Shown in pieces: positions 50,468 to 60,713 of a stretch of 64,000 bases of DNA. Source of the stretch: an uncultured delta proteobacterium (lineage in GTDB: Bacteria; Myxococcota_A; UBA9160; JAFDET01). Every line of letters starts with the position of its first letter. The stretch's first letter is position 1. The stretch lies in the NCBI GenBank assembly GCA_947259215.1, contig CAMYLJ010000010.1, forward strand, positions 11,891 to 75,890, given 5' to 3'. The position numbers and the translations under genes were made by a program. The notes under the pieces are model-generated. The model had not been told where the DNA came from, searched no databases, and saw only the letters and a list, made by a program, of their open reading frames with translations.

Positions 50468-50922
50468 GGGAAGATCTGCCGGATGCACCCGAAGCGGTAG
50501 TCGAAGATCGCCGCCAGGGACGCGCGCACCGCCAGCGCGTGGGCCAGGCGCCCGAGCGGACCCAGCGGCAGCCGGTACTCCACCCGATCGGTCATCAGCA
50601 CGCCGCCCGGAAGCTCGCGGAAGACGTGGCTGTGGCGCCAGAGCGCGTAGGGGCCGCGCTCCTGCTCGTCCACGAAGCCCTCTCCCGGCTTCCACTCGCG
50701 GATGCGCGTGCGCCAGCGCACGGGCACGCCCGCCAGACGGATCCGGTAGTCGATGCGCGCGCCGACGGCCATCTCGATCGGCCCGGGCGTCAGGATGCGG
50801 AAGCCGAGCCAGGCCGGCGTGATGCGCTCCAGGTTGCGCGCGTCGCTGAAGAAGGCAAACACGTCGTCCAGGGGCGCCGGGATCCACTGGTCGCGTTCGA
50901 GCAGGTGCGTGGGGGAGCTCAT
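50464..50922 (-). CDS. SRPBCC (START-like) family protein
   Basis: The 152-residue ligand-binding fold starts LERDQWIPAPLDDVFAFFSD, continues with NLERITPAWLGFRIL and VRWRTRIREWKPGEGFVDEQ, and ends FDYRFGCIRQIF, as in bacterial SRPBCC/CoxG-like proteins often called cell-division-inhibitor-like. It binds a hydrophobic ligand in the family. In the locus it sits between an acyltransferase and the DUF1295 gene, with GTGA and ATGA overlaps on both sides. Confidence 0.85.
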   Translation of the reverse strand: MSSPTHLLERDQWIPAPLDDVFAFFSDARNLERITPAWLGFRILTPGPIEMAVGARIDYRIRLAGVPVRWRTRIREWKPGEGFVDEQERGPYALWRHSHVFRELPGGVLMTDRVEYRLPLGPLGRLAHALAVRASLAAIFDYRFGCIRQIFP

Positions 50923-51932
50923 GCCGGGGCCTTTCCGTTGGCAGCGATCCACGCGTCCACGCGCTGCCACTCGTCGAGCAGCCAGTCGATCTGGGCGTCG
51001 CGATCGGGGGGCACCTGGCTGGCCGGGATCCGCCAGTACACCACCCGGACCGTCTGCCCGACGAGTCCTCCGCGCAGGAAGTCGCTGAAGCTGCGGATCC
51101 CGTCGAAGCCGACGTGGGCGCAGAAGACCACGTCGCTGCCGGGGCTCGCCTGGAGCAGGCTCAGGGGGCCGCCCAGGCGAGGGGGCAGCACGTGTCGCAG
51201 CGCGCGCGCGCGCTCGAGCAGCGCGGCCTCGCCCCGGGCCTCGAGCTTCTCGAGCACCCGCGCCTGCTTCTCCGGCGTGAAGCGCGTGCCCTCGGGGTAG
51301 ATCAACACCCCGTCGCTCCCGAGGTCCCGGGCCAGCTCCGCCACGGCGGCGATCTCGGCGGCGCTGTCGTCCGAGAAGCGATCGACGAAGCAGTTGCGGA
51401 GCCGTCCTCCCACCACGTCGAGACACGGGTCCCAGAGCAGCTCGCGCTTCATCACGTGGCGGAACTCGATCCGGAAGGGGTCGGACAGCAGCGCGGTGGT
51501 CAGGACGGTGTCGGCCGTGCTGGCGTGGCGCATGAAGAGCAGCACGGGTCCGGGAACGGCCACCTCCGGGTTCTCGACTTCGAAGCGGAGCCCGAAGCAG
51601 AGGCGAGCGCCGCGCACCAGCTGGCGGGCCCACCAGCACTTCAGCGCGAAGTTCCACGCGAGGTAGCGCTGCGGCGACCCGCGCAGCACCCGGACGGCGA
51701 GCCAGGCGCCTCCCGCCGCCGCCAGACCGAGCGTCTCGCAGCCCAGGTACCAGATGAAGAAGGCCAGGGCGCGGGTCACTCCGAAGCGCGAGCGCAGCGC
51801 GAGGTCGGCCAGGATCGTGCCGGCGAACAGCAGCGGTGAGGTCGCCACGGAGACGACGAACAGCAGCAGGTAGAGGGGAATCGTGATGGCGCGGCGCACG
51901 CCGGAATCGGGTGCCACAGCCGACCCTACCAC
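50919..51932 (-). CDS. PlsC-like 1-acyl-glycerol-phosphate acyltransferase family protein
   Basis: The 337-residue protein has three or four N-terminal hydrophobic segments (about 15-85) and an acyltransferase domain with RHASTADTVL (the HxxxxD catalytic pair) and LIYPEGTRFTPEKQ. It probably acylates a lipid at the membrane. The end overlaps the SRPBCC start by 4 nt and its start overlaps the chalcone-isomerase-like gene end by 7 nt. This puts a lipid acyltransferase inside the light locus. Confidence 0.85.
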   Translation of the reverse strand: MVGSAVAPDSGVRRAITIPLYLLLFVVSVATSPLLFAGTILADLALRSRFGVTRALAFFIWYLGCETLGLAAAGGAWLAVRVLRGSPQRYLAWNFALKCWWARQLVRGARLCFGLRFEVENPEVAVPGPVLLFMRHASTADTVLTTALLSDPFRIEFRHVMKRELLWDPCLDVVGGRLRNCFVDRFSDDSAAEIAAVAELARDLGSDGVLIYPEGTRFTPEKQARVLEKLEARGEAALLERARALRHVLPPRLGGPLSLLQASPGSDVVFCAHVGFDGIRSFSDFLRGGLVGQTVRVVYWRIPASQVPPDRDAQIDWLLDEWQRVDAWIAANGKAPA

Positions 51933-52507
51933 GAGTGGGTGAGAAGCCGGTCCTTCAGCTTGCGATCGAGCGGGTCCTCGCCCAGCCAGATGCCGAAGAG
52001 CGCCGCCGAGAAGTCGGCCCCCTCCACGCTGCCCAGGGGCTCCCCGTTCAGCGACAGCTCGGTGCCCCTGCCGGGTAGGTAGGTGATGGCGTAGCGGTCG
52101 CCCGGTTCCACGTCGCGGTAGAATGCGTTGAAGCGCTCGATCCTCGGGATCAGGGCCTCGTAGGCTGCCGGCTCGACGTTACGCTCGATCCCCTGGAACG
52201 TGACCTCGCGGAAGTCGTCGCCCTTGATGGCCCAGAAGTACTCGATCTCGAGGCGCCTCGGCACTTCTTCCAGCGCCCGCTCCGGCGAGATCCCCGGGGC
52301 CAGGTAGAGCCCGGCCACGTAGGCCTTGAAGACGATCCGGTAGCGCAAGAGCGCGGCGTTCGAGAGCTGCAGCGGCGTATTCCCCGCCGACAGCGTGCGC
52401 TGGAACGATACGCCCTCCACGACCAGGCCCGATTCGTCGTCCAGGTCCTCGGCCTGGGCCGGAACGCCGAGGGCGAGTGCGATCAGCAGCGTGGCGATCC
52501 GGATCAC
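51926..52507 (-). CDS. Exported chalcone isomerase-like protein
   Basis: The 193-residue protein has a Sec signal peptide (IRIATLLIALALGVPAQAED) and the CHI-like domain: GVSFQRTLSAGNTPLQLSNA, RIVFKAYVAGLYL, IEYFWAIKGDDFREV and SVEGADFSAALFGIWLGEDP. Bacterial members are fatty-acid-binding-like rather than flavonoid enzymes. Start GTG 52507 has a GGAGAGG SD and gives a canonical signal peptide; ATG 52540, overlapping the methyltransferase stop, is an in-frame alternative. CHI-like genes commonly accompany photolyase and cfa genes in light-induced clusters. Confidence 0.85.
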   Translation of the reverse strand: MIRIATLLIALALGVPAQAEDLDDESGLVVEGVSFQRTLSAGNTPLQLSNAALLRYRIVFKAYVAGLYLAPGISPERALEEVPRRLEIEYFWAIKGDDFREVTFQGIERNVEPAAYEALIPRIERFNAFYRDVEPGDRYAITYLPGRGTELSLNGEPLGSVEGADFSAALFGIWLGEDPLDRKLKDRLLTHSW

Positions 52508-52536
52508 GGTCCATCCTCTCCAGCCGTCGTGATGGC

Positions 52537-53586
52537 TCATGCGACACCCGGGGCCGGCGCCGCGGGCGCGAGACGCGCGTGCACGACCCACCACTCCTGG
52601 CCTTCGCGGTAGCCGAAGAGCTCCGAGCAGGCCAGGAAGAAGAGCCGCCAGCGGTGCAGCCAGCGCGTCGCTTCGCGGCTGCCGTACACGCGTTCCAGCA
52701 CCGGCACCACGTGTGCGCGGGCGCGATCCAGGTTGTGGAGCCAGGCGTCGCTGGTGCGGGCGTAGTGCTGGCCGGAGACGCGCCAGCTGCGTTCCACGAG
52801 CAGGTCCTGCTGGCAGTGCAGCAGCAGATCGTCGGAGGGCATGATGCCGCCCGTGAAGAAGTGACGCGCCATCCAGTCGCCGTCTCCGCGATCCTCGTAG
52901 GGGTAGGCGGCCTCGCGGTGGGCGAAGTGATGCAGGAAGAGCCTGCCGTCGGACTGGAGCCAGCCGGCGACCCGTGCCAGCAGGGCCTGCCAGTTGCGCG
53001 TGTGCTCGATCATCTCGACGGACAGGATGCGGTCGAACGTCCGCTCCGGTTCGAAGTGGTTGACGTCGCTCGTCACGACCTCGACGTTGTCGAAGCCTTC
53101 CCGCTGGCAGCGCGCCAGGATGTACTCGCGCTGGGGCTTCGAGTTGGAGACGGCCAGGACGCGGCAGCGCGGGTAGCGCTCGGCGATCCACAGCGCGAGC
53201 GAGCCCCAACCGCAGCCCAGGTCGAGCACCTGCATGCCGTCGTGGAGATCGGCCCGCTCGCACGAGAGGGCCAGCATCGTCTCCTCCGCCAGGGCGAGGT
53301 CCTGTACGCCTACCGCCCAGTGGGCGCAGCTGTACTTCAGGCGGGGCCCGAGGACGGCCTCGAAGAAGCCCGGCTCGACCTCGTAGTGCTGGTCGTTGGC
53401 CCGCTCCGGAGCCACCGCGATGGGCTGATCGCGCATGCTCGCGAGGAACGCCTGCTTCGCCTCGGCCCGTCGCTCGGCGTCTTCCGGCATCACCTCGTTC
53501 AGGCGCTCCCGCAGCATCCGGCGGATGCCCGCTCGCACGAGCGCGTCCGGAAGCCAGCCGGACTCGGCCAGCTCGACGCCCGTCAC
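52537..53586 (-). CDS. Cyclopropane-fatty-acid-synthase-family SAM methyltransferase
   Basis: The 349-residue methyltransferase has the SAM motif VLDLGCGWGSLALWIAERYP, AVSNSKPQREYI, VTSDVNHFEP, ILSVEMIEHTRNW and HHFAHREAAYPYED. It lacks the long N-terminus of E. coli Cfa and resembles the shorter CfaS/coclaurine-N-methyltransferase-like type (RAGIRRMLRERLNEV). Likely substrate is an unsaturated phospholipid acyl chain, giving cyclopropane or methylated fatty acids. GTG 53586 overlaps the sigma factor stop. It is the likely output of the light-induced sigma factor. Confidence 0.9.
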   Translation of the reverse strand: MTGVELAESGWLPDALVRAGIRRMLRERLNEVMPEDAERRAEAKQAFLASMRDQPIAVAPERANDQHYEVEPGFFEAVLGPRLKYSCAHWAVGVQDLALAEETMLALSCERADLHDGMQVLDLGCGWGSLALWIAERYPRCRVLAVSNSKPQREYILARCQREGFDNVEVVTSDVNHFEPERTFDRILSVEMIEHTRNWQALLARVAGWLQSDGRLFLHHFAHREAAYPYEDRGDGDWMARHFFTGGIMPSDDLLLHCQQDLLVERSWRVSGQHYARTSDAWLHNLDRARAHVVPVLERVYGSREATRWLHRWRLFFLACSELFGYREGQEWWVVHARLAPAAPAPGVA

Positions 53587-54938
53587 GACAGGGCCTGGCT
53601 CTCGAGGAAGGCGCCGAGGCCGCGCGCGTCGGCGCGGGCTCGCATCTTGGCCAGTGCGCGAGCCTCGATCTGGCGGATCCTCTCGCGCGAGAGCCCGAGC
53701 TCCTCGCCCACGCGCTGGAGCGTGTGGGGCTCGTTGCCACCCAACCCGAAGCGGAGTCCGACGATCGTGCGCTCGCGCTCGTCCAGCTCCCGCACCAGGT
53801 CTCGGATCTCCGGCTGGATCTCCTGCTGGGCAACCCGCTGGATCGGATCCGCGACGTCCCCGTCGGCCAGGCGATCGGCGAGCACCTGTCCCTCGAAGCC
53901 GGGGACCTCCTCGTCGAGGGAGTTCGGCTTCAAGGTGGCGCGCTGGAGGGTTTCGATCTCGTTCTCCTCGACGCCCAGGATCGCCGCGATCTCCTGGTTC
54001 TCCGGGGCGCGACCCAGGCGTCGCGTGAGCTCGCCACGGGTGCGCTTCTCGCGGATGGCCAGGTCGTAGACGTGGGAAGGCAGCCGGACCGTGCGCGAGT
54101 GGTTCTGGACGGCCCGGATGAACGACTGCCGGATCCACCAGGCGGCGTAGGTCGAGAACTTGAAGCCGCGCGTGGCGTCGAACTTCTCCACCGCCCGGAT
54201 CAGGCCGATGTTCCCTTCCTGGATCAGGTCTCCAAAGCCGAGTCCCATGCCCCGGTACTGCTTGGCCATGTGCACCACGAGCTTGAGGTTGTGGTGCACG
54301 AAGGTGTTCTTGGCCTCGAGCATCTCGTCGTGGTGACCGTCTATGGCGCGAAGCCGGCTGCGCAGCTCCGGCGCGGGCATTCCGGCTCGCTCGGCCAGAC
54401 CCCGGGTCCGCCGGCGGAGCTGGAGCCGCAGCTCGCGCCAGGCCTCCTCGATCAACGCCATGGACAGGTTCGCATCGCGGAGGGCGCGCGAGAGGTCGCT
54501 GTCGATGCGACCCGGATTCGAGCTGCCGCCCGCGTCGCGCTTCTGGAGCAGGCGCTGGATGCGCGCGAGGGCGCGGTCCACACCGGGTCCGGGGTCGGGC
54601 AGGGCGGGGTCGCGCCAGCTGGCCGACAGCGACGCGGTCGTGCGCCCGGCCCCGCGCCGCTCGCACCAGCGCCCGAGCGCGAAGCGCGCGGTGAACGGGA
54701 TCGCCTCCATTGCGCTTCGGAATGCCTCGGAGTGCTGCTGGATCCGCCCGGCGAGCTCCTGCTCGTTCTCGCGGGTCAGCGTGCTCACCGGCGCTATGTC
54801 GCGCAGGTAGCGCTTGAGCGAGTAGGCCGGCGCCACCCCGTCCCCGAGCGGCTCGGGCGAGGCATGCGCCTCGGCGCGCGTGCTGGCGGCCGGTGAGTCG
54901 GTGCGGGTTTCGGGAACGTTGTGGGTGTCGAAGTCCAT
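53583..54938 (-). CDS. RpoD-like (group 2/3) sigma factor of the light locus
   Basis: The 451-residue sigma-70-family protein has region 1.2 (YSLKRYLRDIAPVSTLTREN, about 40-78), a nonconserved insert of about 130 residues, region 2 (HHNLKLVVHMAKQYRGMGLG, LIQEGNIGLIRAVEKFD, FSTYAAWWIRQSFIRAVQN), region 3 and region 4 (LDERERTIVGLRFGLGG, LGLSRERIRQIEARAL). It lacks region 1.1 of the housekeeping sigma, so it is an alternative factor. ATG 54938 lies 29 nt behind the TTGACA of the shared light element with no SD (leaderless). The methyltransferase start overlaps its stop. Confidence 0.93.
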   Translation of the reverse strand: MDFDTHNVPETRTDSPAASTRAEAHASPEPLGDGVAPAYSLKRYLRDIAPVSTLTRENEQELAGRIQQHSEAFRSAMEAIPFTARFALGRWCERRGAGRTTASLSASWRDPALPDPGPGVDRALARIQRLLQKRDAGGSSNPGRIDSDLSRALRDANLSMALIEEAWRELRLQLRRRTRGLAERAGMPAPELRSRLRAIDGHHDEMLEAKNTFVHHNLKLVVHMAKQYRGMGLGFGDLIQEGNIGLIRAVEKFDATRGFKFSTYAAWWIRQSFIRAVQNHSRTVRLPSHVYDLAIREKRTRGELTRRLGRAPENQEIAAILGVEENEIETLQRATLKPNSLDEEVPGFEGQVLADRLADGDVADPIQRVAQQEIQPEIRDLVRELDERERTIVGLRFGLGGNEPHTLQRVGEELGLSRERIRQIEARALAKMRARADARGLGAFLESQALS

Positions 54939-54984
54939 GAAAGGATGTTGACATGGGCTGGACGAGATGTCAATCAAATGTCTA
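54939..54984 (-). promoter_or_regulatory. Light-locus promoter/operator of the sigma gene (TAGACAT-N4-TTGACA)
   Basis: On the minus strand, TAGACAT (54984-54978), four bases, TTGACA (54973-54968), then 29 nt to the ATG. The candidate -10 is CAACAT (54950-54945), 17 bp after TTGACA and 6 nt before the ATG. An inverted repeat TTGACAT-N12-ATGTCAA (54948-54973) is also present. The same element with the same spacing precedes the DCC gene. Confidence 0.65.
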
Positions 54985-55001
54985 TAAAAATATAGACATT
55001 T
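54976..55001. promoter_or_regulatory. 26-bp perfect AT-rich palindrome (probable operator)
   Basis: Two 11-bp arms (AAATGTCTATA and its complement) flank AAAA. It overlaps the MerR stop codon and the TAGACAT box of the sigma promoter. In DNA of about 70% GC this AT-rich perfect dyad stands out. The half-site ATGTCTA is the complement of the TAGACAT box. Confidence 0.6.
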
Positions 55002-55902
55002 ATCCCCAGGGGGATCTCGCCGTGGCGCCCTCGGGGAGACGGGCCAGGTGCCGGACGGCGCCTTCCAACTCGTCCAGGTCGCTGAAGAAATCCACCCCGG
55101 GCAGCGGCGACGCCGGCTGCTGGCCCCCGACCCAGATCCGGACATCGCCGGGAAGCCGCTGGCGCAGCTGGCGGAGGTACGGCTCGGCCGCGCCCGGCCC
55201 CAGGTGGATGAGGCTCAGGGCGACCGCGGCGGGTCGGCAGCGTTCGGCGGCCGCCACGACCTCGTCCACCGGCAGCTCCGGCCCGAGATACGTGGCCGCA
55301 GCGCCGGCCCCGACTGCCGCCACGGCGGCGATCAGCGCCCCCAGCTCGTGGCGCTCGTCGGGGGGCGTCGTAAAGATCACGTGCGGGGCGTCGCCGTGCG
55401 ACGCGCCCCGGAGCACGCTGCCCAGGATTCCGCGGGTCACCGCCGAGAGGAGGTGCTCGGACGCGATCGAGGCCGTGCCCGCCTGCCAGCGGTCCCCGAC
55501 TTCGCGCAGCAGGGGCGCCGCCACCTGGCGCGCGAAGCCGGTCGGCCCCAGCACGCTGAACTGCTGCGCCAGCGAGCGCTCGACCTCGGCGAGATCGAGG
55601 CGGTCGATGGCGTCGAGCAGCTCCGTCTGCGGGCGGGCCTCGCGCCGGGCCGGCCCGGTCAGCAGGCGTTCGATCTGCGGGTTCTCGAGTCCGGCGAGCT
55701 GGCTGATGCGGTGGCCCGCGTCGACCGCTTCCTTCAGGAGCCGGAGGCGCGCGACGTCAGCGTCGCTGAAGCGCCGCGTTCCGCCCGGAGTTCGCTCCGG
55801 CACCACGGCGGCGTAGCGACGCTCCCAGGCTCGGATCGTGTGGGCGCTGAGCCCGGTCAGCCGTACCACGGCGGCCAGGGCGTAGCCGGGTCGCTTACTC
55901 AC
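55000..55902 (-). CDS. CarH/LitR-type B12-dependent MerR photoreceptor-repressor
   Basis: The 300-residue protein has an N-terminal MerR winged helix (about 7-75: YALAAVVRLTGLSAHTIRAW, ERRY), a helical B12 cap (about 90-165) with W-x9-EH (Trp139, Glu149, His150), and a cobalamin-binding Rossmann domain (about 172-290) with the lower-ligand motif DERHELG (His185). This is the adenosylcobalamin signature of CarH, which represses in the dark as a tetramer and falls apart in light. GTG 55902 has a GAGGGGAAG SD. Its gene lies between two copies of the probable operator, so autoregulation is likely. Confidence 0.92.
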   Translation of the reverse strand: MSKRPGYALAAVVRLTGLSAHTIRAWERRYAAVVPERTPGGTRRFSDADVARLRLLKEAVDAGHRISQLAGLENPQIERLLTGPARREARPQTELLDAIDRLDLAEVERSLAQQFSVLGPTGFARQVAAPLLREVGDRWQAGTASIASEHLLSAVTRGILGSVLRGASHGDAPHVIFTTPPDERHELGALIAAVAAVGAGAAATYLGPELPVDEVVAAAERCRPAAVALSLIHLGPGAAEPYLRQLRQRLPGDVRIWVGGQQPASPLPGVDFFSDLDELEGAVRHLARLPEGATARSPWG

Positions 55903-55916
55903 GTCGCTTCCCCTCA

Positions 55917-55960
55917 AAACTAGACATGAACTTGACAAAGCCATCCCGTCAGTCAAGTTC
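55917..55960. promoter_or_regulatory. Divergent light-locus operator/promoter (MerR / DCC-photolyase)
   Basis: On the plus strand TAGACAT (55921-55927), four bases, TTGACA (55932-55937), then 29 nt to ATG 55967: spacing identical to the sigma promoter. AACTTGAC and GTCAAGTT (55929-55936, 55952-55959) form a dyad with a 15-bp spacer. On the minus strand TAGTTT (55922-55917) could be the -10 of the regulator's own promoter and overlaps the TAGACAT box, so one bound repressor could cover both directions. Confidence 0.65.
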
Positions 55961-55966
55961 GAGCGC

Positions 55967-56377
55967 ATGACGACGCCTACGGCCTGGGACATCAAGATGC
56001 TGTTCGATGGCGAATGCCCGCTCTGCCGGCGGGAGATCGCTTTCCTCGAGCGCCGGAACGGCCGCGGTCGCCTGGCGCTGGAGGACATCGCGGCGCCCGG
56101 CTTCGACCCGGCGACCTACGGTCTCGACCAGGCGGCGGTCATGGGACGAATTCACGGCGTGCTGCCGGACGGCCGGGTCCTGGAAGGCATGGAGGTCTTC
56201 CGCCGCGCCTACGCCGCGGTGGGGCTCGGCTGGCTGCTGGCGCCCTCGCGTTGGCCCGGGCTGGGGCGGGTCTTCGATGCGGGGTACCGGGTCTTCGCCC
56301 GAAACCGCCTGCGCTGGACCGGGCGAACCGACGCCGCCTGCGAGCAGGGCTCCTGCGCCCTTCCCGACGGCCGCTGA
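55967..56377 (+). CDS. DCC-family (DUF393) thiol-redox-like protein
   Basis: The 136-residue protein has the DxxCxxC signature in MLFDGECPLCRREIAFLERR (Cys18, Cys21 region) and the family's C-terminal WPGLGRVFDAGYRVFARNRL. Members have a thioredoxin-like fold and are thought to be thiol-disulfide proteins; the partner is unknown. It is the first gene of the plus-strand light operon, 2 nt before the photolyase. Confidence 0.88.
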   Translation: MTTPTAWDIKMLFDGECPLCRREIAFLERRNGRGRLALEDIAAPGFDPATYGLDQAAVMGRIHGVLPDGRVLEGMEVFRRAYAAVGLGWLLAPSRWPGLGRVFDAGYRVFARNRLRWTGRTDAACEQGSCALPDGR

Positions 56378-56379
56378 GC

Positions 56380-57777
56380 ATGCGCGGTCTCTTCTGGTTC
56401 CGGAGCGATCTTCGCCTGCGTGACCACCGTGGCCTGGCCGCCCTGGCCGAGCGGGTCGACGAGTGGGCTCCGGTCTTCATCCTCGACGAAGGCCTGCTCG
56501 ATTCGGCCCGGACCGGGGAGCCGCGCGTCCGGTTCCTGTTGGACTGCCTCGCGCGGCTCGACGCGGACCTGCGCAAGCGCGGCACCCGGCTCGTGGTGCG
56601 GTGCGGCAGCCCCGAGCGCGAGCTGCCACGGCACGCGCACGAGACCGGAGCCGAGCGCGTCGTCTGGAGCCGCGACTACGGGGCATTCGCGAGCGGGCGT
56701 GACGAGCGCATCCGACAGCGCCTCGAGCGCGACGGCTGCCGGGTCGAGACGGTGAAGGACCGGGTCGTCTACGAGAGCGATGAGGTGCGCTCCGCTGCGG
56801 GGCGGCCCTACGCGGTCTACACGCCCTACGCCAAGACCTGGCGCGCACGCTTCGCGGAGGAGCCCGAGCTGCCCACGGGACCGCTGCGGCTGCCGCGCCC
56901 CATCCCGCGCGTCCGCAGCGACGTGCTGCCCAGCGCGAAGGATCTGGGCTTCACGGACGAAGGCGCAGAGCTTCCGACGGGTGGCGAGGCCGCCGCCCGG
57001 CGGCGCCTCGACGCCTTCCTGGACGGGCCGGTTGCCGCGTACGCGCGAGACCGCGATCGTCCCGCCGTCGACGGGACCTCACGCCTGTCGCCATACCTCC
57101 GCTTCGGCGCGATCTCCGTACGCACCTGCATCGATGCGGCGCACGAGCTCGCTTGCGCGGACCCTGCCGCCGGGCCCGGCGTGCGCAAGTGGGTGGACGA
57201 GCTCATCTGGCGCGAGTTCTACTACGCCATCCTGGCCGAGCATCCCCGGGTGGCGCGCGAGTCCTACCGCCGCGAGTACGATGCCCTGGAGTGGGAGAAC
57301 GACGATGAGTGCTATCAGGCCTGGTGCGCGGGCCGGACCGGCTATCCCATCGTGGACGCGGGCATGCGGCAGCTCGCCGCCACGGGCTGGGTGCACAACC
57401 GGGTCCGCATGATCGTGGCGAGCTTCCTCACCAAGGACCTGCTGATCGACTGGCGCCTCGGGGAGCACCACTTCTACCGCCAGCTCGTGGACGGAGACCC
57501 GGCCTGCAACAACGGAGGCTGGCAGTGGGCTGCCTCGACGGGGACCGACGCGCAGCCGTACTTCCGCATCTTCAACCCGACGACCCAGGGCGAGCGCTAC
57601 GACCCCGACGGCGCCTACGTGCGGCGCTGGGTTCCCGAGCTGCGCGACCTGCCCGACAGCCGGGTCCACAAGCCCTGGGAATCCCCGATCCTCGCGCCCG
57701 GGTATCCCGCGCCGATCGTGGATCACGCCGAGCGTCGGCGACTGGCCCTTCAGCGATACGAGGCGGTGCGAGCATGA
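56380..57777 (+). CDS. phrB: Class I CPD photolyase
   Basis: The 465-residue flavoprotein has the N-terminal antenna domain (LFWFRSDLRLRDHRGLAALA) and the FAD domain with SPYLRFGAISVRTC, WVDELIWREFYYAILAEHP, WCAGRTGYPIVDAGMRQLAA, TGWVHNRVRMIVASFLTKDL and NNGGWQWAASTGTDAQPYFR. These include the FAD-binding loops and tryptophans of the electron-transfer chain. It repairs UV cyclobutane pyrimidine dimers with blue light. ATG 56380 follows the DCC stop by 2 nt; the second MerR gene overlaps its end. Confidence 0.96.
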   Translation: MRGLFWFRSDLRLRDHRGLAALAERVDEWAPVFILDEGLLDSARTGEPRVRFLLDCLARLDADLRKRGTRLVVRCGSPERELPRHAHETGAERVVWSRDYGAFASGRDERIRQRLERDGCRVETVKDRVVYESDEVRSAAGRPYAVYTPYAKTWRARFAEEPELPTGPLRLPRPIPRVRSDVLPSAKDLGFTDEGAELPTGGEAAARRRLDAFLDGPVAAYARDRDRPAVDGTSRLSPYLRFGAISVRTCIDAAHELACADPAAGPGVRKWVDELIWREFYYAILAEHPRVARESYRREYDALEWENDDECYQAWCAGRTGYPIVDAGMRQLAATGWVHNRVRMIVASFLTKDLLIDWRLGEHHFYRQLVDGDPACNNGGWQWAASTGTDAQPYFRIFNPTTQGERYDPDGAYVRRWVPELRDLPDSRVHKPWESPILAPGYPAPIVDHAERRRLALQRYEAVRA

Positions 57778-58754
57778 GCGAGCGAACGCGAGGCTATGCG
57801 ATCGGAACGGTGGCCAACCTGACGGGCCTGGACCCGCACACGATCCGGGCCTGGGAGCGACGCTACGAGGCCGTCAGGCCGGACCGGAGCGCCGGAGGTG
57901 CACGCCGCTACCGCGACGAGGACGTGGCGCGTCTCCAGCTGCTGAAGGCCCTGACCGAGTGCGGCGAGCCGATCGGAAGCGTCGCGGGTCTCGAAGACGC
58001 GGTCTTGCGCTCGCGCCTCGAGCGGATGGCCGGCCTGTCGGAGTCCCTTGCGCCCCGCGAGGCTCGCAGGGGGCCCCTGCGCGTCGCGCTGCTGCACCCG
58101 CGCATCGCCGAGCAGATCCGCGCACACGGAAGCGCCCCGTCGGGTCTCCAGCTGAGCGTCCGCGAGGACGCCCTCGAGGCCTTCGTCTCCGGGCTGCATG
58201 TGGACTCCTGCGACGTGGTGATCGTCGGGCTCGAGCTGCTCGGGCGGGAGCCGCTGCGAGCGCTCGAACGCATCTCGCGGGCGTCCGGCGGCCGCCCCAT
58301 ACTCATCGTCTACCAGTTCGCCCGGCGCGCCATGCTGGCCCAGCTCGGCAGCCGCGGCGCGCGCCTCGTGCGTGGCCCCCTGCGGCTCGAGGCCCTGGGG
58401 CGCAACGTACTGGACCTGTTCGCGAGCGACGGTGCGCTTCGCAGCCGGGGTTTCGCTCCCCTGGAGACGCTGCGCCGACCCAACGGACGGCCCGCTCCGG
58501 AGCGGCGCTTCGACGACCGCCAGCTCGCGCGTCTGGCGGAGATTGCCAGCGCGGTCGACTGCGAGTGCCCCAATCACCTGGCGTCGATCGTCACGAGCCT
58601 GGTCGCCTTCGAGCGCTACGCGGGCGAATGCGAGAACCGTGACCAGGCCGACGCCCGGCTCCATGCGCGCCTCGCCCTCGGCACGTCGCTGGCTCGCGAC
58701 GCGATGGAACGCCTGCTGGCCGAGGTGTGCGAGCAGGACGGGATCGCGGTTTAG
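57774..58754 (+). CDS. MerR-family regulator without a B12 site
   Basis: The 326-residue protein has a MerR HTH (YAIGTVANLTGLDPHTIRAW, ERRYEAVRPDRS, about 7-75) like its CarH neighbour. The middle (about 100-205) is a receiver- or B12-like Rossmann fold (PLRVALLHPR, CDVVIVGLELLGREPL, RPILIVYQFA) without W-x9-EH or ExHxxG. The C-terminus (about 255-320) has VDCECPNHLASIVTSLVAFE and GECENRDQADARLH with Cys263, Cys265, His268, Cys286 and His297, a possible metal or redox site. ATG 57774 overlaps the photolyase stop. Confidence 0.85.
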   Translation: MSERTRGYAIGTVANLTGLDPHTIRAWERRYEAVRPDRSAGGARRYRDEDVARLQLLKALTECGEPIGSVAGLEDAVLRSRLERMAGLSESLAPREARRGPLRVALLHPRIAEQIRAHGSAPSGLQLSVREDALEAFVSGLHVDSCDVVIVGLELLGREPLRALERISRASGGRPILIVYQFARRAMLAQLGSRGARLVRGPLRLEALGRNVLDLFASDGALRSRGFAPLETLRRPNGRPAPERRFDDRQLARLAEIASAVDCECPNHLASIVTSLVAFERYAGECENRDQADARLHARLALGTSLARDAMERLLAEVCEQDGIAV

Positions 58755-58791
58755 GCGGGCGCCGTCGGTCTCCCGCAGTAGAATGGCGCCC

Positions 58792-59763
58792 GTGGCGACC
58801 CAGATCCCCCTGTTCGCCCGGGAGCCGATCGCCGTCGAGCCGGCTCCCCCGAGTGCCGAGGACGTCGCGGCCGCGACCCGGATTCCGCCGGGCGTCCGCC
58901 TCGGAACCTCGTCCTGGTCCTTCCCGGGCTGGACCGGCAGCGTCTGGCAGTGCAGCGTCCGTCCTGCTCTCCTGGCGCGCCACGGGCTCGCCGCCTACGC
59001 GCGGCACCCGCTCCTGCGCGCGGTCGGGATCGACCGCAGTTACTACGCGCCCCCCGAACGGTCGCTGCTCGCGCGCTACGCCGCGGAGGTGCCCGACGGC
59101 TTCCGCTTCCTGGTGAAGGCGCACGAGCACGTGACCTGCGCGCAGCTGCGCGCGCCGAGCGGGCGCTCCGAGCCAAACCCGCGCTTCCTGGATGCGGCCT
59201 ATGCGACGGACGCCGTCGTCGCGCCCGCCGTCGCGGGGCTCGGGCCCAAGCTCGGCGCGCTGGTGTTCCAGTTCCCGCCCCAGGATCCGGCCCTGGCCGG
59301 CGGCCCGGAGGGATTCGCCGAGCGCCTCCACGGCTTCTTGACGCGGCTTCCCCGCGGTCCCGCCTACGCGGTGGAGATCCGCAACCAGGCGTGGTTCACG
59401 CCGGCCTACGTCCAGGCCCTGCGTGACGCGGGCGCCGTCCACTGCCTGGCGCTGCATCCCCGCATGCCCGACCTGGAGGTCCAGGAGGCGGCGCTGGCTC
59501 CCGACGCGCCGCTGCTCGTGGCACGCTGGATGCTGCGTCGGGGCATGCGCTACGAGCAGGCGCGGGAGCGTTACGCCCCCTTCGACCGGCTGGCGGAGCC
59601 GGATCCGCGCAACCGCGAGCGGCTCGCGGGGCTGCTGGCGCGCACCGCCGCGCGCGGCAGCGCCGCGCTGGTGACGGTGAACAACAAGGCCGAGGGATCG
59701 GCGCCGCTCTCGGTCTTCGCCCTGGCCCGCCGCACCGCGGCCCTGCTGGAGGCCGGGCGGTGA
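58792..59763 (+). CDS. DUF72 family protein
   Basis: The 323-residue TIM-barrel-like DUF72 protein starts IPLFAREPIAVEPAPPSAED and has GTSSWSFPGWTGSVW, SYYAPPERSLLARYA, FRFLVKAHEHVTC, LVFQFPP and AVEIRNQAWF, typical family blocks. Function unknown. GTG 58792 was chosen because a TAGAAT box (58779-58784) overlaps the ATG at 58783 and stands 7 nt before this GTG. Related genes (YecE type) often neighbour photolyases and DUF523 genes. Confidence 0.82.
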   Translation: MATQIPLFAREPIAVEPAPPSAEDVAAATRIPPGVRLGTSSWSFPGWTGSVWQCSVRPALLARHGLAAYARHPLLRAVGIDRSYYAPPERSLLARYAAEVPDGFRFLVKAHEHVTCAQLRAPSGRSEPNPRFLDAAYATDAVVAPAVAGLGPKLGALVFQFPPQDPALAGGPEGFAERLHGFLTRLPRGPAYAVEIRNQAWFTPAYVQALRDAGAVHCLALHPRMPDLEVQEAALAPDAPLLVARWMLRRGMRYEQARERYAPFDRLAEPDPRNRERLAGLLARTAARGSAALVTVNNKAEGSAPLSVFALARRTAALLEAGR

Positions 59764-60713
59764 GCGAAGCGCCCCTTCGCGTCGGCATCTCCTCGTGCCT
59801 GCTCGGCAACGAGGTGCGCTTCGACGGCGGCCACAAGCGGGATCGCTTTCTCACCGACACGCTGGGCCCCTTCGTCGAGTGGGTTCCCGTGTGCCCCGAG
59901 GTCGAGGTCGGGATGGGCACCCCCCGCGAGAGCGTGCGCCTGGTTCGCGAGGGCGAGGACGTGCGCATGGTCGCCCCGAAGAGCGGTCGCGACCACACCC
60001 GGGACATGCACACCTTCGCGCGCAAGCGCGTGCGCGCCCTCTCCAAGCTCGATCTCACGGGCTACGTGCTCAAGAAGGACTCGCCCAGCTGCGGCATGGA
60101 GCGGGTGCGGATCTACGCGGAGAACGGCATGGCGGAGCGCAAGGGCCGGGGCCTGTTTGCCGAGGCGCTGCTCGAGGCGCTGCCGAACCTGCCCGTCGAG
60201 GAGGAGGGCCGCCTCAACGATCCGGTGCTGCGCGAGAACTGGATCGAGCGGGTCTTCGCCTACCGCCGGCTGCGGGACCTCTTCGCCGGTGGCTTCGGCC
60301 GCGGTGACGTCGTGCGCTTCCACACCGCCCACAAGCTCCAGATCATGGCCCATTCGCCCCAGGCGTTCCGGGAGCTGGGCAGGCTGGTGGCGGCGGTGAA
60401 GGAGACCCCCCGCGTTGAGTTCATCCGCCGCTACGGCGACGGCTTCATGGCGGCGTTGCTGCGGCGCGCGACGCCGCGGCGTCACGTGAACGCCATGCAC
60501 CACATGGCCGGCTACTTCAAGAAGCAGCTCGACGCGCGCGACAAGCGCGAGCTGCTGGACCTGATCGAGGACTATCGAAACGGCCTCGTGCCCCTGGTGG
60601 TGCCCCTCACCTTGATCCGCCACCACGTGCGCACCCTGGACGTGGAATACCTGCGCGGCCAGCACTATCTGGAGCCCCACCCCAAGGAGCTCATGCTGCG
60701 CAATCACGTCTAG
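59760..60713 (+). CDS. DUF523-DUF1722 fusion protein (YbgA-like)
   Basis: The 317-residue protein has an N-terminal DUF523 domain (about 5-155: RVGISSCLLGNEVRFDGGHK, PVCPEVEVGMGTPRE, KKDSPSCGMERV) and a C-terminal DUF1722 domain (about 195-315: FHTAHKLQIMAHSP, HHMAGYFKKQLDARDKRELL). E. coli carries a DUF1722 protein (YbgA) directly before phrB, so linkage to photolyase is conserved. GTG 59760 overlaps the DUF72 stop. It ends the plus-strand light operon. Confidence 0.9.
   Translation: MSEAPLRVGISSCLLGNEVRFDGGHKRDRFLTDTLGPFVEWVPVCPEVEVGMGTPRESVRLVREGEDVRMVAPKSGRDHTRDMHTFARKRVRALSKLDLTGYVLKKDSPSCGMERVRIYAENGMAERKGRGLFAEALLEALPNLPVEEEGRLNDPVLRENWIERVFAYRRLRDLFAGGFGRGDVVRFHTAHKLQIMAHSPQAFRELGRLVAAVKETPRVEFIRRYGDGFMAALLRRATPRRHVNAMHHMAGYFKKQLDARDKRELLDLIEDYRNGLVPLVVPLTLIRHHVRTLDVEYLRGQHYLEPHPKELMLRNHV

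Follow-up and report, generated by a model that had tools for sequence, protein, structure and literature searches.

Two copies of one short element, TAGACAT-N4-TTGACA, head the two arms of a putative light locus in an uncultured delta proteobacterium (JAFDET01), and they are in all likelihood CarH/LitR operators lying over near-leaderless promoters. They were found in a window (the whole stretch of DNA under study) of 64,000 nucleotides from contig CAMYLJ010000010.1 of assembly GCA_947259215.1. One copy precedes an operon for a group-2 sigma factor and the other an operon containing a DNA photolyase gene, and a gene for a CarH-type protein is located between them.

Genes of the locus

The following genes were annotated.

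50919..51932, minus strand: acyltransferase (PF01553), overlapping start (operon)
51926..52540, minus strand: chalcone-isomerase-like protein (PF16036)
52537..53586, minus strand: cyclopropane/mycolic-acid synthase-type methyltransferase, overlapping the end of the sigma gene (operon)
53583..54938, minus strand: group-2 sigma-70 factor, regions 1.2, 2, 3 and 4, isoleucine at the equivalent of E. coli T440
55000..55902, minus strand: carH, MerR-type DNA-binding domain and B12-binding domains, Wx9EH and ExHxxG motifs
55967..56377, plus strand: DCC1-like thiol-disulfide oxidoreductase
56380..57777, plus strand: DNA photolyase
57774..58754, plus strand: B12-less LitR-type MerR protein with a recognition helix almost the same as in CarH
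58783..59763, plus strand: DUF72 protein
59760..60713, plus strand: TudS-DUF1722 fusion, a tRNA 4-thiouridine eraser of RudS type such as light operons typically contain

The minus-strand unit thus runs from the sigma factor through the methyltransferase and the chalcone-isomerase-like protein to the acyltransferase, with overlapping gene ends, and the order in the plus-strand unit is DCC protein, photolyase, B12-less MerR, DUF72 and TudS-DUF1722 (RudS). RudS together with photolyase and LitR constitutes a known light operon in Pseudomonas (PMC11417400). The RudS-type gene that ends the photolyase operon (59760-60713) fits a near-UV response. The G047 homologue (L066) of the chalcone-isomerase-like protein has a LitR-type palindrome of its own and a TTGACA-N30-ATG arrangement.

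The shared element and its half-sites

The first-pass annotation had described identical boxes at the sigma and DCC promoters, with identical spacing to the start codon, and had seen in TAGACA and TTGACA two direct repeats lying over the -35 position. All of this was borne out: TAGACAT-N4-TTGACA is present on the minus strand at one promoter and on the plus strand at the other, 29 nt separate TTGACA from the ATG in both, and the two repeats lie exactly 11 bp apart, start to start, with TTGACA as the -35 box. Additional inverted half-sites at each element had been overlooked. The features of the two promoter regions are as follows.

54968..54984, minus strand: element 1, TAGACAT TTGA TTGACA, heading the sigma operon and made up of two direct repeats of the 11-bp CarH type
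54945..54950, minus strand: CAACAT, the putative -10 box in the sigma promoter, with a 17-bp spacer; ATG 54938 follows after 6 nt
54948..54973: inverted half-sites TTGACAT / ATGTCAA, spanning the sigma promoter
54976..55001: AT-centred inverted half-sites AAATGTCTATA / TATAGACATTT, perfect 11-bp arms, 4-bp loop
55921..55937, plus strand: element 2, TAGACAT GAAC TTGACA, heading the DCC-photolyase operon
55954..55959, plus strand: CAAGTT, the putative -10 box in the DCC promoter, with a 16-bp spacer; ATG 55967 follows after 7 nt
55928..55960: palindrome GAACTTGAC-N15-GTCAAGTTC, perfect 9-bp arms (55928-55936 / 55952-55960)
Plus strand: rightward DCC promoter of the face-to-face reading given below, TTGACA-N16-CAAGTT
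-35 55956-55951 and -10 55934-55929, minus strand: putative leftward carH promoter, TTGACT-N16-CAAGTT

In element 1, the second repeat is the -35 box (54973-54968), followed by 29 nt (54967-54939) up to the ATG at 54938; in element 2, the -35 box (55932-55937) is followed by 29 nt (55938-55966) up to the ATG at 55967. As carH is oriented towards the sigma gene, element 2 is flanked by carH and the DCC gene and can serve both; it lies 18 bp 5' of the divergent carH start (GTG, 55902), a position also missed in the earlier annotation. A conserved third repeat was not found at these promoters, and the TCAACA found in phase at the sigma promoter, two repeats further along, is not conserved in relatives.

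The arms of the AAATGTCTATA / TATAGACATTT pair (54976-54986 and 54991-55001) provide one more half-site, which points away from the sigma gene; similar pairs are present in G003 and G004, and a partial one in G001. A hairpin or terminator after carH was considered for this palindrome (54976-55001) and rejected, as it is AT-rich and its full complementarity is not kept in relatives. The 7-bp arms of the TTGACAT / ATGTCAA pair (54948-54954 and 54967-54973) showed no conservation in relatives in the promoter alignment.

The right arm of GAACTTGAC-N15-GTCAAGTTC is kept as GTCAA in four species, and the palindrome reads as two face-to-face promoters, the rightward one of the DCC gene and a putative leftward one of carH. 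A perfect palindrome across the -35 and -10 boxes of the DCC promoter, with GTCAA conserved, might also be expected of a classical MerR activator site, where a dimer bound to such palindromes twists an over-long spacer. However, MerR-activated promoters have spacers of 19-20 bp, whereas those found here are 16-17 bp, and the palindrome, which the two face-to-face promoters account for, spans 33 bp, a considerable length for the site of a MerR dimer. We therefore consider an activator site very improbable.

Rarity of the element in the genome and the order

Pattern searches of the 5.7-Mb genome yielded only two exact copies of TAGACAT-N4-TTGACA, both at this locus. These were also the only exact matches in the window, 100 shuffles of which gave on average 1.1 matches even when 3 mismatches were permitted. 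The degenerate pattern TNGACA-N5-TNGACA occurs three times genome-wide, i.e. at these two sites and at contig C13:57521. The shared element is thus far from a chance match.

In a set of 80 genomes from the order, the exact TAGACA-N5-TTGACA was found 12 times and the reversed pattern 8 times. Ten of the 12 exact copies are located at CarH/LitR, sigma or photolyase genes. Six are the sigma and DCC promoters of three species; two lie 5' of a B12-less LitR-type MerR gene in G007 and G072 (loci L082 and L081), with a divergent group-2 sigma gene on the other side of the element in G072; one is in G040, 28 nt upstream of another MerR gene of this kind; and one precedes, in G033, the gene of a small membrane protein, which adjoins a photolyase-like gene and has a homologue at the C13 site. 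Many copies at unrelated genes, the finding named beforehand as evidence against an operator, were not seen in the motif scan of the genome and of the 80 genomes. Exact elements in G071 (within a TolC-like gene) and G073 (near groEL) are apparently due to chance.

Conservation in related species

Three related species have the same carH, sigma and DCC-photolyase layout, with protein identities of 57-58% for CarH and 50-55% for the sigma factor. TNGACA-N5-TTGACA is kept in 7 of the 8 sigma and DCC promoters of the four species, and the distance to the start codon is N29 or N30 in all 8 (29 in each of the four DCC genes; 29, 29, 30 and 29 in the sigma genes). The DCC promoters align over 75 bp without gaps, the invariant columns being CT-GACA, TTGACA, GTCAA, a T three bases later (the -7 T) and the last two bases of the start codon, TG; the boxes are separated by 5 variable bp. 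In the sigma promoters, TTGACA is invariant, TAGACA is present in 3 of 4 and the opposed half-site with its T-tract is kept, the exceptions being one additional base in G003 and the missing upstream half-site in G001. By these alignments, both promoters carry the element as a phylogenetic footprint.

The two promoters lie within 1 kb of each other, and their likeness could in principle reflect a recent duplication or chance. This is refuted by conservation and is of negligible likelihood: the promoters are unlike outside the boxes, each is separately conserved in other species, and the element is rare genome-wide.

Spacing of half-sites at carH loci

Half-site spacings were counted in 31 carH loci of the order (114 kb), whose CarH proteins are about 44-58% identical to that of the locus, and in 100 kb of other sigma loci as a control. 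In these 31 loci, which are related and do not represent independent events, same-direction TNGACA pairs at exactly 11 bp occurred 11 times in 7 loci (one pair within coding DNA), every other same-direction spacing occurred at most twice, and opposed pairs at 14 or 15 bp numbered 14. No half-site pairs at the 11-bp direct or the 14-15-bp opposed spacings were found in the 100 kb of control sigma loci. Other families of the order have carH and photolyase arranged divergently around a palindrome, TGTCAA-N9-TTGACA, both arms of which are -35 boxes. This 21-bp palindrome, in some cases as a close variant, separates carH or an adjoining gene from photolyase in L050, L052, L054, L060, L068 and L071, its arms being two -35 boxes placed back to back, at about 27-34 nt from the start codons.

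The CarH protein and the identity of the binder

The CarH protein of the locus scored above the Pfam cut-off for MerR_1 and B12-binding_2 and slightly below it for B12-binding (29.7 vs 32.1 bits), and it aligns over its full length with Thermus CarH (3whp, 5c8d). It carries W-QAGTASIAS-EH (Wx9EH, Ado pocket) and ERHELG (ExHxxG, His ligand); both motifs are conserved in the orthologues, where one variant region with E changed to A and H kept was checked by eye. By its domains and motifs, the protein is thus predicted to be a class I LitR photoreceptor, of the same AdoCbl-dependent type as the CarH proteins of Thermus, Bacillus megaterium and myxobacteria.

The operators of those bacteria are likewise tandem 11-bp TnnACA repeats, one of which holds the -35 box. 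The published repeat is nnnnTnnACAn, 11 bp long, with one repeat over -35 (PMC9304148). At both sites described here, tandem 11-bp TnnACA repeats are present and the second, TTGACA, overlaps the -35 position, 16-17 bp before the predicted -10 box. Known CarH operators consist of three or four repeats, or of repeats plus pseudo-repeats, and that of Thermus of three perfect repeats, whereas only two conserved repeats were found at each of the two promoters. This shortfall is not decisive, because CarH also binds operators of one or two repeats plus pseudo-repeats (PMC9304148). The earlier suggestion that the boxes are operators of the CarH-type protein is therefore well supported by the 11-bp TnnACA period, the AdoCbl motifs, the footprint at both promoters and the genomic rarity, and we regard them as candidate CarH operators.

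Full-length CarH was not detected in G007 or G072, and both keep the element beside a B12-less LitR-type MerR gene. The element is therefore best assigned, as far as comparison of genomes can tell, to the family of LitR/CarH DNA-binding domains rather than to the B12 protein alone, and CarH need not be the binder in every genome. As the recognition helix of the second, B12-less MerR protein is nearly identical to that of CarH, this protein may share the CarH sites, by analogy with CarA and CarH, which share sites in Myxococcus (PMC8156234).

It might even be the main binder, with CarH binding weakly or elsewhere. Besides the similarity of the helices and the situation in G007 and G072, this would be in line with the class II LitR repressors that control photolyase genes in Pseudomonas, e.g. 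PplR/PmlR2 (PMC9758184). PplR1 and PmlR2 are likewise B12-less MerR repressors, acting at photolyase-LitR-RudS operons. However, these class II proteins bind inverted sites, T(G/A)TACA-N12-TGTA(C/T)A (such as TGTACA-N12-TGTACA), and not 11-bp direct repeats, and PmlR2 is released by a LOV protein (PMC9758184). Moreover, G003 and G004 have CarH and both elements, and no second MerR was found in these two, incomplete, genomes. A main role for the protein encoded at 57774-58754 is thus rather unlikely, and CarH is retained as the principal candidate at this locus.

Promoter type and start sites

Twenty-three promoters of the order that carry half-sites were aligned. NANNNT was found 16-18 bp after the -35 box in 18 of the 23, compared with at most 3 for the other three-position blocks tested, and CANNNT in 13, a number reached in none of 5000 spacer shuffles, whereas TANNNT was found in only 2; as the set was collected by half-sites and the starts were picked by open frames, this represents a strong pattern and not a blind test. 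These promoters carry a C instead of the sigma70 T at -12 (CANNNT), a feature that was newly noticed here. The start codon follows the -35 box after N29 in 11 and N30 in 6 promoters, together 17 of 23, and the predicted -10 boxes of the sigma and DCC promoters lie 6-7 nt from the ATG. The first-pass idea of leaderless mRNAs is accordingly kept in the form of predicted near-leaderless transcripts, with start codons at or beside the predicted transcription start, unlike those behind known CarH operators.

Genome-wide, TTGACA-N16/17-CANNNT-N5-7-RTG has four matches, two of which are at this locus, one in a GC-rich stretch and one before a small antitoxin-like gene. The canonical leaderless pattern with TANNNT had only two matches in the genome.

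The sigma factor and residue 440

Isoleucine takes the place of E. coli sigma70 T440 in the sigma factor of the locus and in its three orthologues, all of which retain Q437, while RpoD of the same genome has T440. Isoleucine was found at this position in 15 of 18 group-2 sigma factors in the loci of this order, and the group-2 paralogues encoded in the same genome as the locus sigma have I or V there in place of T440. As a control, 79 sigma factors of other lineages, obtained by a profile search of contigs using the sigma alignment, were scored at region 2.4: 73 had Q437/T440 and none had isoleucine at 440, these matches being mostly housekeeping and other group-2 sigmas, with no clear orthologue of the locus sigma. 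In L173-L176 and in loci L011-L081, many group-2 sigmas have I or V, and once H, at the T440 position, and several such sigmas of the order adjoin LitR/CarH genes.

In E. coli, the T440I substitution of sigma70 suppresses a T to C change at -12 (PMC2613000, PMC8321222). There, an isoleucine facing -12 goes with a C at -12 (PMC2613000), as it does here, but T440I is a laboratory mutant of the housekeeping sigma, whereas the isoleucine described here is a natural, conserved state of group-2 sigmas. Judging from this pairing of residue and base, I440 and -12C agree, and self-amplification by the locus sigma is therefore plausible but unproven.

The same agreement, together with TTGACA exactly at -35 and the shared CANNNT boxes, would also suit an element that is simply a promoter of the locus sigma (autoregulation), with TAGACA as a sigma or UP-like element and CarH uninvolved. 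We find this distinctly unlikely, as TAGACA holds its 11-bp phase with TTGACA while the intervening 5 bp vary, and the same half-sites also occur as inverted pairs at carH-photolyase promoters, which a sigma factor does not need. We know of no sigma contact at the position of TAGACA.

A possible light circuit

If each TAGACA-N5-TTGACA consists of two 11-bp CarH/LitR half-sites placed over a -35 box, and transcription starts at or beside the start codon, CarH would very probably sit on both elements in the dark and keep both gene sets off. In the light, breakage of the cobalt-carbon bond would make CarH fall off and free the -35 boxes, and the sigma factor (I440) produced from element 1 could then amplify the response by recognising the CANNNT -10 boxes at its own promoter and at the photolyase promoter. 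Binding, repression, leaderless starts and sigma use are what we infer from the element, its rarity and conservation, the 11-bp period, the N29 spacing, the -10 pattern and the CarH and sigma motifs. A CarH-gated, sigma-amplified circuit of this kind is put forward tentatively. It is conceivable, if somewhat short of probable, that a B12 sensor gates a natural counterpart of T440I, whose matching -12C near-leaderless regulon would act as a private, self-amplifying light channel beside the housekeeping sigma.

Such a circuit would work like LitR-LitS of Streptomyces, but with a different class of sigma factor. LitS is an ECF sigma that serves carotenoid genes, whereas the locus sigma is a complete group-2 sigma-70: it has regions 1.2, 2, 3 and 4, and not the LitS-type architecture of regions 2 and 4 only. 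In Streptomyces, a B12-dependent light-sensing MerR protein controls the sigma factor that carries the response on (PMC12705666).

The known targets of CarH are mainly carotenoid genes, and the candidate targets here are a photolyase operon and a group-2 sigma operon; the proposal would thus extend the reach of CarH, in an uncultured lineage, to a photolyase operon and a complete sigma factor of the sigma-70 type. The phylogenetic footprint names the bases to mutate, and the link between a natural sigma residue and a natural -12 change makes a mutant result of 1989 testable as real regulation.

The third half-site pair

The third pair in the genome, TAGACATAATTTAGACA on contig C13, lies between a leftward gene for a small membrane protein, with N29 from the first TAGACA to the ATG, and rightward genes for a short membrane protein and for short-chain dehydrogenases; a gene for a flavin amine-oxidase-like protein and one of polyketide-cyclase type (SRPBCC) are nearby. 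The promoters at this site apparently have a T at -12, and therefore not all sites fit the sigma step. The surrounding region (L041:13053-19726; G000 C13, about 55-62 kb) is a second light-type cluster, containing genes for an FAD amine-oxidase-like protein, an SRPBCC protein, two small membrane proteins and several SDR proteins. In G033, the homologue of the C13 small membrane protein stands behind the exact element, beside the photolyase-like gene.
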